From: an uncultured Poribacteria bacterium
GTDB taxonomy: Bacteria > Poribacteria > WGA-4E > PCPOR2b
Direction: 5' to 3'
Length of the DNA: 64,000 nucleotides
Assembly: GCA_958296125.1 (NCBI GenBank)
Contig: OY282444.1
Coordinates: 1,979,940 to 2,043,939, forward strand
Shown here: piece by piece, positions 2,744 to 47,500 of the stretch
How positions within the stretch are numbered: position 1 is the first letter of the stretch
Layout: every line of letters starts with the position of its first letter
Translations under genes and position numbers: made by a program
Notes under the pieces: model-generated
Seen by the model: only the letters and a program-made list of their open reading frames with translations
Told to the model about the DNA's origin: nothing
The model's database searches: none

Positions 2744-2813
2744 ATCGTCGTTTTATAGCGTTTGCTCAGAAGGTTCGTGTGTCACTGAGCCCATGAGAGC
2801 AAAAAAAATGATG

Positions 2814-3725
2814 AATGATAGACCATCAGCTTCTCACGCGTCAGATTCACCGACCAGTTATTATTGAAAAAATCGTAAAAAGGGGCGTAAGCGCACGCTT
2901 AAATACTTAACTATAACTAAGGAGATGATTCAGATGGATGGCGAAAAACAATGCAATGGGCTTGTTGTACTTTTGGTATTTTTTCTGGGAGGCTTAGTCG
3001 GCTCACTTCTCGGTTTACTCTTTGCCCCCATGACCGGCAGAAAGACACGGAAGAGGATTCGCGATGCTTCCACGGATGTCAAAGCTCGGACCATCAACAC
3101 CGCCCACAGAGCAAGAAACGTGACAACTGAAAAGGTAACCGACTTGGTCGATAAGGGGAAAACACGAGTTGACGACGCGACGGAGAGTGTGAGAGCCGCT
3201 GTCGAGGCTGGGAAAACCGCTTTCGTCGAAAAGAAGTCTGAACTGACGAATATCATCTCGCCTGATAAATGATAGACCATCAGCTTCTCACGCGTCAGAT
3301 TCACCGAACCAGTTATTATTGAAAAAATCGTAAAAAGGGGCGTAAGCGCACGCCTAAATACTTAACTATAACTAAGGAGATGATTCAAATGGATGGCGAA
3401 AAACAAGGCAATGGGCTTGTTGTACTTTTGGCATTTTTTCTGGGAGGCTTAGTCGGCTCACTTCTCGGTTTACTCTTTGCCCCCATGACCGGTAGAAAGA
3501 CGCGGGAGAGGATTCGCGAGGCTTCCACGGATGTCAAAGATCGGACCATCAACACCGCCCACAAAGCAAGAAACGTAACAACTGAAAAGGTAACCGACTT
3601 GGTCGATAAGGGGAAAACACGAGTTGACGACGCGACGGAGAGTGTGAGAGCCGCTGTCGAGGCTGGGAAAACCGCTTTCGTCGAAAAGAAGTCTGAACTG
3701 ACGAATATCATCTCGCCTGATAGCA
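2814..3725 (+). repeat. Tandem duplication, two units of about 454 bp
   Basis: Two head-to-tail copies (about 2814-3267 and 3268-3725) each contain the same upstream segment, the same AAGGAG ribosome-binding site and the same YtxH-like gene. They differ by a 1-base indel in the leader and a few substitutions. The junction lies at the last codons of the first gene, where TGATAAATGATAG gives an early stop. Confidence 0.9.
2934..3272 (+). CDS. YtxH-like protein, copy 1
   Basis: A 112-residue protein with a glycine-rich hydrophobic N-terminus (about residues 9-31, LVVLLVFFLGGLVGSLLG) followed by APMTGRKTRKRI, the hallmark of YtxH-type proteins, then an amphipathic charged helix. Probably membrane-associated; the molecular role of the family is unknown. 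The ATG at 2934 is preferred because AAGGAG (2919-2924) lies 9 nt upstream; the ATG at 2925 touches that site. It differs from copy 2 at six positions (C7, V15, K40, D44, A51, R59) and lacks the acidic tail of copy 2 because the duplication junction introduces a stop. Confidence 0.75.
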   Translation: MDGEKQCNGLVVLLVFFLGGLVGSLLGLLFAPMTGRKTRKRIRDASTDVKARTINTAHRARNVTTEKVTDLVDKGKTRVDDATESVRAAVEAGKTAFVEKKSELTNIISPDK

Positions 3726-16024: not shown

Positions 16025-16056
16025 GAGTATAATGCCTGACAGAACTTCGCACAAGC

Positions 16057-16111
16057 CCAATGCTTGCCTGGTCTGTCCGTGCCGAGACCAGGCGGAACGG
16101 ACAGCATTGGG
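16057..16111. repeat. Micro-repeat copy inside a 55-bp palindrome
   Basis: The 18-mer GTCCGTGCCGAGACCAGG (16075-16092) lies inside a larger palindrome whose outer arms are CCCAATGCT and AGCATTGGG. The same 18-mer family recurs in the neighbouring tnpB element and at 30.35 and 47.17 kb. Confidence 0.75.
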
Positions 16112-16194
16112 TCAAACCGTGTTTTTTTATTTCAACGATAGTGAGGCTGTGTTATAATTAGATTATCTTTCTTGTGGGAGAGTCTCACGCCACC

Positions 16195-16251
16195 GCTCGT
16201 CCGTGCCACCGTTCCGTGTGCCCCGCGAACGGGACAGGCAGGCGTGACCAG
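16195..16251. repeat. Micro-repeat cluster inside the IS left-end hairpin
   Basis: Between GCCACC (16189-16194) and GGTGGT (16253-16258) lie about 57 bases made of micro-repeat material: GTCCGTGCC, a CCGTTCC unit, GCGAACGGGACAGGCAGGC and GACCAGG. Removing them closes the terminal hairpin to a compact structure, so they look like a later insertion. Confidence 0.65.
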
Positions 16252-16318
16252 GGGTGGTGTCTCCCACACCCCATTGAGGCGGGATATGAAAGATAGAAAG
16301 AGACTCCCCTGTTAAAAC

Positions 16319-17560
16319 ATGTTAAAAACACATAAAATCGCATTAGCCCCAAACAACGTCCAAGCGACCCAGTTTGCCCAACATTGTGGTTACGCTCCCC
16401 GATTCTATCGTCCGTGCCGAGACCAGGGGGACAGGCGTGTCGCCTACAATCACGCCTTAGCCGACTTCAAAGCAGGGCTCGATGAAGGGGTCTGGCATTC
16501 GCACATAGACCTTTGTCGCCGTTTCAATACTGTCAAACATGATACATACGATTGGTGCGGTGATATGTCACAGAACGCCTCCAAGAATGCGATTTATACA
16601 AATCTCAATGATGCGGTCTCCCGATGGAAGTCAAGTCAAAACAGATTTCCGAAGTTTAAGAAACGGTCTCATAGCAAGAGTTATCAAGCCGATAGCGGTC
16701 GAGGCACAATTTCTGTCGTAGGCAAGCGAATTAAACTCCCCAAAATCGGTTGGGTTCGCATATTTCAAAACCTACGCTACCTCGGCACGATTTGCAAAGT
16801 TGTTATCTCTAAGCAAGGGCATCGGTGGTTTGCTTCAATCCTTGTCGATACATTCGTTGATGACCCGCCACTCCTGGTCTCGGAACGGACAGACCCGCGT
16901 GGCAAGCCTGTTGTGGGCGTGGACATGGGTATTAAACACTTGGCTGTCACGTCTGTCCGTTCCGAGACCAGGGACGGTCGGTATTTTGCGAATCCGAAAG
17001 CGTTGCGTCGGCATGAGCGGAAACTCAAACGGCTTCAACGTCGATTTAGCCGCAAAGTCAAAGGCAGCCGCAACTGGTATAAACTGAAGGACAAGATAGC
17101 CAAGTTGCACTATCGGATAACCTGCATTCGCAAGGATGCACATCATAAGGCGACAACGGCTATTGTCAAAGGTGCAAGTCGTATCGGCATAGAATCTTTG
17201 AACGTCGCGGGCATGATTCAGAATCATAGACTTGCCAAAGCGTTATCCGATGCGTCCTTGTCAACGTTCCTTGAGATGCTGAAGTATAAGTCTGAACGGG
17301 CAGACGTAAAGGTGGTTGAAGCAGACAGATTTTATCCGTCAAGCAAGACGTGCTCGGCCCCGTTCCGAGGGCAGGCTTGCGGTGTAGTAGACAGCGACTT
17401 ATCTTTGTCTGATAGGACATATCATTGTAGCGATTGTGGTCATATCCAAGACCGAGACCTAAACGCTGCAATCAACCTGAGAACAGTCGCCGAGGGGCAC
17501 TCGGAGACGTTAAACGCTTGTTGCTTTGAATCCCGATTTATCGGGGTGGAGATTCTGTAA
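16319..17560 (+). CDS. tnpB: TnpB, RNA-guided nuclease of IS200/IS605 family, with in-frame repeat insertions
   Basis: TnpB is the transposon-encoded RNA-guided endonuclease related to Cas12. This 413-residue protein keeps the RuvC triad: D202 (GVDMGIKHL), E292 (IGIESLNVAG) and D380 (DRDLNAAINL). The zinc ribbon is C345/C354 and C370/C373. Four places hold codons derived from an 18-bp repeat: about residues 27-39 (PRFYRPCRDQGDR, between CGYA and VAYNHALADFK), 186-191 (LVSERT), 213-218 (VRSETR, between LAVTS and DGRYF), and 347-352 (APFRGQ, widening the first CxxC to Cx8C). All keep frame. Whether the protein is active is unknown; the triad is intact but a zinc knuckle is distorted. Confidence 0.9.
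   Translation: MLKTHKIALAPNNVQATQFAQHCGYAPRFYRPCRDQGDRRVAYNHALADFKAGLDEGVWHSHIDLCRRFNTVKHDTYDWCGDMSQNASKNAIYTNLNDAVSRWKSSQNRFPKFKKRSHSKSYQADSGRGTISVVGKRIKLPKIGWVRIFQNLRYLGTICKVVISKQGHRWFASILVDTFVDDPPLLVSERTDPRGKPVVGVDMGIKHLAVTSVRSETRDGRYFANPKALRRHERKLKRLQRRFSRKVKGSRNWYKLKDKIAKLHYRITCIRKDAHHKATTAIVKGASRIGIESLNVAGMIQNHRLAKALSDASLSTFLEMLKYKSERADVKVVEADRFYPSSKTCSAPFRGQACGVVDSDLSLSDRTYHCSDCGHIQDRDLNAAINLRTVAEGHSETLNACCFESRFIGVEIL
16410..16427 (+). repeat. 18-bp micro-repeat, tnpB site 1
   Basis: GTCCGTGCCGAGACCAGG lies in the codons that separate CGYA from VAYNHALADFK. The full extra segment (about 16397-16435) is longer than one unit and includes a second GGGACAGGC fragment. Confidence 0.8.
16873..16890 (-). 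repeat. 18-bp micro-repeat, tnpB site 2 (reverse orientation)
   Basis: CCTGGTCTCGGAACGGAC is the exact reverse complement of the site 3 unit. It encodes LVSERT just before the first RuvC motif. GC-rich sequence after it (CCCGCGTGGCAAGCCTG) may be further repeat material. Confidence 0.8.
16955..16972 (+). repeat. 18-bp micro-repeat, tnpB site 3 (exact codon-bounded unit)
   Basis: GTCCGTTCCGAGACCAGG occupies exactly six codons (VRSETR). Deleting it joins LAVTS to DGRYFANPKALRR, which is the normal family sequence at this place. Confidence 0.85.
17357..17374 (+). repeat. 18-bp micro-repeat variant, tnpB site 4 (zinc knuckle)
   Basis: GCCCCGTTCCGAGGGCAG occupies six codons (APFRGQ) between C345-S and A-C354. 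Its deletion restores CSAC, the expected CxxC zinc ligand pair. Confidence 0.8.
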
Positions 17561-17680
17561 GACCTCAGCAGTTGAGGCTCGAATCGTCGAATCAAGAAGA
17601 TAGCACAGTAATAGGTGAACAATTATTGCTGTTCAGTCTATCATAGGAATCCCAAGCATTTATGCTTGGGAGCAGTCAAG
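17500..17680 (+). ncRNA. Probable omega (guide) RNA region at tnpB 3' end
   Basis: In IS200/IS605 elements the TnpB guide scaffold is transcribed from the end of tnpB through the right end, and the guide is taken from the flanking DNA. Here the segment from the tnpB tail through the terminal TCCCAAGC / GCTTGGGA hairpin to AGCAGTCAAG fits this. The exact ends cannot be read from sequence; the predicted guide would begin near 17681-17685. Confidence 0.45.
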
Positions 17681-47028: not shown

Positions 47029-47151
47029 GTGGATGCTACCTTATCGTCGTTGATGTCCTTTATTTTTGTATTTTTGCACACCAGGTCTGATGAAACGCAA
47101 TCTCCACTTCCACAGGTTTCATTGTAGCATCAAAGGAGCTGTGTGTCAACA

Positions 47152-47333
47152 TAGGGTCATTTAATTCTTCGGTCCGTGCCGTGACCAGGAGCGGGGCAGG
47201 CCTGTCCCCGTTCCGAGGGCCCCGCGAACGGGACAGGCAGGCCCGCCTGTCCCGATGGAATCGGGGATGCAATCGGGGCTGGAACGGACTACCCGTCACA
47301 ATCGGTCAAAAAACGGAAAACTAAATAGCCCTA
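47152..47333. mobile_element. MITE-like element B with 9-bp target duplication
   Basis: Imperfect terminal inverted repeats TAGGGTCATTTAATT and AACTAAATAGCCCTA enclose a GC-rich core made of the micro-repeat family (GTCCGTGCC, GACCAGG, CCCGTTCCGAGGG, GCGAACGGGACAGG). GTGTCAACA is directly repeated on both sides (47143-47151 and 47334-47342). The remaining 47345-47565 gap holds a partial GCAAGTTA end and one 27-bp repeat but no gene. Confidence 0.8.
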
Positions 47334-47500
47334 GTGTCAACATACTATCGCTTGCCACGACTATAAATTAGCTGTTATACTAACGCAAGTTACCATTTGT
47401 CGTCCCGATAGGACTATGTTGGTTCATTAGTTCATTGATTCATTAAAAAAGATCTGTTGTCCCGCTGGGGCTTTGGGATATTTAGGTTAGACATGCTTTG

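Follow-up and report, generated by a model that had tools for sequence, protein, structure and literature searches.

How does one short repeat come to stand several times inside a single protein gene? The question is raised by a tnpB gene in a stretch of 64,000 nt (the window), which is contained in the single-contig genome (5.16 Mb) of an uncultured sponge-associated Candidatus Poribacteria bacterium. The repeat is an 18-bp sequence, GTCCGTKCCGAGACCAGG, here called the 18-mer, and a sequence-only reading of the window had taken it for a palindromic element that targets the gene. Judging from the comparison of filled and empty sites, the repeat is very probably a mobile unit of exactly 18 bp. 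The best overall explanation is probably a non-coding mobile micro-element, which would be moved by an HUH-type step acting in trans.

The gene belongs to a tnpB-only copy of an insertion sequence (IS). Its features are given below in window positions, where ORF stands for open reading frame and L-numbers are labelled loci of the window's genome (G000, used further on, marks genome coordinates).

16040..17679, + strand: tnpB-only IS copy, approximate extent from the left-end to the right-end hairpin (...GGGAGCAGTCAA), from paralog alignment with flanks.
16067..16102, - strand: outer 18-mer CCTGGTCT...CGGAACGGAC in the left-end hairpin loop, split by an inner 18-mer (36-bp nested pair).
16075..16092, + strand: inner nested 18-mer GTCCGTGCCGAGACCAGG.
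16199..16252, + strand: 54-bp triple nest of 18-bp units (variants A, E, C = CCCCGCGAACGGGACAGG), in the window IS copy only.
16319..17560, + strand: tnpB, 413-aa ORF of an IS200/IS605-type RNA-guided nuclease, bearing the inserts that follow.
16397..16435, + strand: 39-bp in-frame insert, confined to the window copy and L032; it is a 21-mer, CCCCGATTCTATCGGGACAGG, interrupted at 16410-16427 by a nested 18-mer.
16873..16890, - strand: 18-mer insert, LVSERT in the protein, preceding the RuvC-I strand.
16955..16972, + strand: 18-mer insert that adds VRSETR to the beta turn following the strand of catalytic D202; target ^GACGG.
17358..17375, + strand: 18-mer variant D, CCCCGTTCCGAGGGCAGG, APFRGQ; the CxxC zinc knuckle becomes Cx8C.
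17520..17545, + strand: 26-bp insert GTTGCTTTGAATCCCGATTTATCGGG, which belongs to a different micro-repeat family and shifts the C-terminal frame.

The genome holds about ten copies of this IS, with nine copies or near-copies besides that of the window, and empty paralogs without the insert were found for every insert site. In L034, L035 and L037 the loop of the left-end hairpin holds no insert, in L033 and L039 it holds one 18-mer, and both the window copy and L038 have the nested pair. The 16873 site is filled in six copies and empty in four (L034, L036, L037 and L039), and L032 minus CCTGGTCTCGGAACGGAC gives the L034 junction there. The insert at 16955 is present in the window copy and L032 only, that at 17358 in three copies (window copy, L032 and L033), and the 26-bp insert in the window copy, L032 and L034, with related k-mers repeated across the sampled sequence. 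Close forms of the 21-mer were also found alone elsewhere in the genome. The 18-mer copies first read at 16410 (+), 16873 (-) and 16955 (+), with a divergent member near 17357, were all confirmed, the last of them starting at 17358. The 413-aa ORF with its intact triad was borne out too, and the paralog copies agree that exact removal of 18 nt restores the sequence, with no target duplication. At 16410 the insert is real, although it is a 39-bp composite and not a lone 18-mer. The statement that all additions are multiples of three did not hold: four internal inserts keep the frame and the fifth, of 26 bp, rewrites the C-terminal tail.

The window TnpB, with the catalytic triad D202/E292/D380, can be aligned to ISDra2 TnpB, which is without exactly the inserted residues, and, within the genome collection, its nearest named relatives come from Candidatus Poribacteria metagenome-assembled genomes. 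A structure model (pLDDT 69; its Foldseek matches are TnpB structures) was used solely to locate the inserts, two of which have very low confidence; in it the N-terminal insert and those at 16873 and 16955 fall in predicted loops. Between two tnpB copies that share inserts, the ratio of non-synonymous to synonymous rates (dN/dS) was 0.081 (75 synonymous and 25 non-synonymous changes), therefore the proteins appear to have stayed constrained. Insert-bearing TnpBs are apparently still under purifying selection, with the caveat that the copies exchange segments. A paralogous tnpB (L040/L041, G000:1068216-1069347) carries an 18-mer with one extra base, so that its reading frame is split into two ORFs, and a second tnpB family of the same genome (L042-L046, around 33% identical) also has in-frame 18-mers, at other sites. 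Downstream of tnpB in L032 (G000:1058577), an 18-mer lies in the right-end hairpin loop, the expected place of the guide RNA scaffold.

The 18-mer family is dispersed, as a genome search proposed in the sequence-only reading indeed found: there are 192 copies at two or fewer mismatches in the genome and none for the reversed-pattern controls, and the chance expectation within the window is 0.03. Units also lie outside the ORF (16067-16102 and 16199-16252). The five congeners analysed have 10-23 copies and the remainder of the order almost none. Two exact matches in viral contigs, without recognisable nesting or other units, were taken as chance, and viral carriage was rejected. In the literature on Poribacteria repeats we found no mention of the 18-mer element.

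We read 126 copies with their flanks, in a sample of 656 kb of the genome. Sixty-five of them had a gap-free empty counterpart, representing 26 distinct sites, nearly all intragenomic, once tandem pairs were left out. The 18-mers were inserted in both orientations and no target duplication was found, the two-base flanks matching in 3/62 cases against 3.9 expected. The right flank showed a preference for G at both +1 and +4 and for G/C at +5; the pattern ^GNNG was present in 25/56 non-hairpin sites versus a background of 6.9% (P=6e-15), and in 22 flank clusters of the congeners +4 was G in 73%. Hairpin loops were discarded as a general target, since just 4/60 sites (control 1.1%) lay in them and this is a minor class. 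Excision of units uncovered 14 hidden ones, the nesting reaching at most three layers. Relatives of the 18-mer (18-mers with other stems, 21-mers and a 26-mer) behaved similarly. The variant CCCCGCGAACGGGACAGG stood immediately ahead of another unit's CAG(G) in nearly all sampled cases (for example at window 16217-16234, L036 and L152).

Host genes carry the unit as well. The single-copy ketopantoate reductase gene (G000:1083348-1084331) has exactly one 18-mer more than its orthologs in five congeners, and the comparison across the six species is otherwise gap-free in the stretch compared. The Uma2 gene, also single-copy, shows two exact 18-bp gains; a PDH-E2-like gene has an 18-mer in two congeners and none in the three other genomes compared, the window's genome included; and the DNA methylase genes have one to three units each. 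All six reading frames of the 18-mer are without stop and all are used in ORFs; by our own estimate around one in five random 18-mers is stop-free in all six. Selection for frame only, as suggested earlier, is not needed, because 18 bp is also the length of the intergenic units and all six frames are open.

In an unbiased 464 kb, 16 of the 22 18-mer copies were outside genes, although ORFs of at least 200 aa made up 80% of the bases. Only 6/22 copies were in such ORFs, five of the six in tnpB genes. Coding DNA therefore has fewer insertions than its share of the sequence, and tnpB is tolerant rather than chosen. The supposed targeting of the guide-RNA nuclease was rejected in view of the insertions in host genes and intergenic DNA; TnpB is conspicuous because it is multicopy and tolerant.

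Regarding its structure, the 18-bp unit is, on one strand, CCTG followed by a 14-nt hairpin, whose stem is made of three compensating pairs and, past a bulge of one base, two C-G pairs that carry a G-A/C-A triloop. In units of the form NNN-CGTKCCGW-N'N'N'-CAGG the arms were complementary in 124/129, compared with 1.7% of random 18-mers ending in CAGG. Four stem types were found (GTC/GAC, CAC/GTG, CCC/GGG and CTC/GAG), and the frequently variable positions were 7, the triloop centre, and 11, the bulge. The predicted fold of the CCTG strand, ....(((.((...))))), is common to variants A, D and E. The idea of a small mobile element tolerated in coding sequence stands, but the unit is better described as a CCTG-tagged hairpin than as a palindrome.

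HUH/Y1 enzymes, such as those of IS200/IS605 and REP systems, use tagged hairpins and short flanking targets and make no duplication. The 18-mer combines the same traits, which an HUH/Y1-like step would fit, and we propose such a step tentatively, at rather less than an even chance, as what moves the unit. An enzyme supplied in trans, likeliest of the IS200/IS605 or REP-transposase type, would recognise the tagged hairpin while the DNA is single-stranded and join it beside the short target. The sites themselves show that the unit goes in whole, in either orientation and without target duplication, by preference right ahead of GNNG(G/C) on the strand that ends in CAGG, and also into other units. 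In coding DNA each insertion adds 18 bp, that is six stop-free codons, so insertions in loops of tolerant proteins survive. The most specific form of this proposal is that transposition acts on the tagged 18-nt hairpin as such, which would be the smallest mobile DNA element known, its bulged G-N-A triloop hairpin being recognised by an enzyme that inserts it before GNNG with no duplication; this may be so, with chances not far below even.

Several points weigh against the explanation by a mobile micro-element and an HUH-type enzyme. The evidence is wholly comparative, from genome sequences, and gene conversion between IS copies makes both dN/dS and the number of independent events harder to read. 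For variants A, D and E, folding was predicted to be energetically no more favourable than for shuffled sequence. Two Y1 transposases are encoded in the genome (G000:355745 and 4411522), neither of them linked to the 18-mer; the second, RAYT-like, is flanked by a tandem array of a different repeat. Furthermore, congeners with fewer 18-mers own more Y1 genes, and Y1 gene number was rejected as a driver, as it showed no correlation with 18-mer copy number. The link between Y1 and the 18-mer is therefore left as a candidate. At the locus of that second gene (L153, G000:4410900-4412060), which is REP-transposase-like, it stands amid tandem repeat copies with the stem CTGTGGGAG/CTCTCCCACAG.

Among the alternatives, the one that survives best, though unlikely, is that repair or replication errors, by template switching or end-joining capture of a short fragment, spread the repeat with no dedicated enzyme. 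No enzyme was found and some insertions lie in hairpin loops of IS ends, as this would have it, but exact 18-bp boundaries, a target motif and compensating stems are not expected from random capture.

Slightly less probable again is a retrocopying route, in which a reverse transcriptase would turn an RNA intermediate back into DNA. The use of both orientations, the lack of target duplication and the hairpin unit agree with such a route. However, no RVT_1-type reverse transcriptase was detected in the window's genome, the richest in copies, yet one is present in each of the five copy-poor congeners, a pattern that speaks against an RNA route by way of that family. A correlation of reverse transcriptase with 18-mer abundance was thus rejected, being the opposite of what was expected; a reverse transcriptase of a type other than RVT_1, or an enzyme since lost, may have served.

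We consider it quite improbable that the spread was passive, with one insertion per IS carried along by IS transposition and gene conversion and the 18-mer itself immobile. The IS copies are indeed mosaics, with gene conversion or segment exchange between them in the paralog alignment, and several sites are common to two to six copies. Nevertheless, the exact 18-bp gains in the single-copy ketopantoate reductase and Uma2 genes contradict passive spread as the sole cause, as do the 26 unrelated sites with empty counterparts and the units nested within each other. Finally, an assembly artefact or ordinary TnpB residues can practically be dismissed: the inserts are known from assembled sequence alone, but the same 18-mer occurs in independently assembled congener genomes, shared insert sites lie in segments 6-11% divergent between IS copies, and the residues are missing from ISDra2 TnpB and the paralogs.

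A mobile 18-bp element, compared with known systems, most resembles the small dispersed repeats (SDR) of Nostoc. Elhai et al. 2008 reportedly described SDR in Nostoc and relatives as lineage-confined, nested units of 21-27 nt that form a hairpin with compensatory changes, and for their spread reverse transcription of an RNA intermediate is said to have been suggested. PMC2884548 and PMC3116915 cite the SDR of Nostoc. The 18-mer shares with them the unit of around 20 bp, the dispersed, multicopy occurrence, the compensated hairpin, the nesting in itself and in small transposons, the single lineage and signs of recent movement. It differs in its phylum (Poribacteria, not that of Nostoc), in its size, 18 bp being outside 21-27 (a related 21-mer exists), in its CCTG tag and the bulge and triloop of its hairpin, in its target ^GNNG and in the insertions in conserved protein genes.

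Tagged REPs have a GTAG or CGTC tag (PMC3733652), and REPINs go with RAYT transposases (PMC3733652, PMC3116915). Like them, the 18-mer has an unpaired tetranucleotide at the hairpin foot and some copies within ORFs; unlike them, its tag is CCTG/CAGG, the inserted unit is single and not a paired REPIN, and no RAYT gene is associated with it, the genome's own RAYT-like gene lying in another array. It has neither the terminal inverted repeats nor the target duplication of miniature inverted-repeat transposable elements (MITEs), being too short at 18 bp for separate termini. Rickettsia palindromic elements (RPEs) are roughly 100-150 bp long. The likeness in idea to RPEs, drawn in the sequence-only reading, was supported, only as to in-frame insertion in genes with different reading frames used; RPEs are far longer palindromic units, confined to other bacteria, and the 18-mer is an 18-bp unit of Poribacteria. 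With IS200/IS605 elements it has in common subterminal hairpins and the way of inserting, next to a short target that is not duplicated; those elements have ends of around 100 bp and usually genes, whereas the 18-mer is 18 bp and gene-free.

The 18-mer would thus rank among the smallest mobile DNA elements known and would set a lower size for mobile DNA. Single-copy genes that are filled in one close relative and empty in another offer a clean comparative system for the spread of tiny repeats in bacteria, and the 18-mer shows one way in which working proteins, a Cas12-related RNA-guided nuclease among them, gain six residues in frame.

Elsewhere in the window, one more feature belongs to the same families:

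47172..47300, + strand: intergenic nest of several micro-elements from the 18-mer's families, with a 2-mismatch 18-mer copy at 47172.

It is contained in an intergenic repeat (47132-47340) with the ends TAGGGTCATTTAATTCTTCG and GGAAAACTAAATAGCCCTA, both of which recur in the genome and resemble a larger MITE-like family. The window also has a tandem duplication of around 455 bp at 2809-3607 (96-98% identical), adjoined by a perfect 21-bp tandem pair at 2701-2742.
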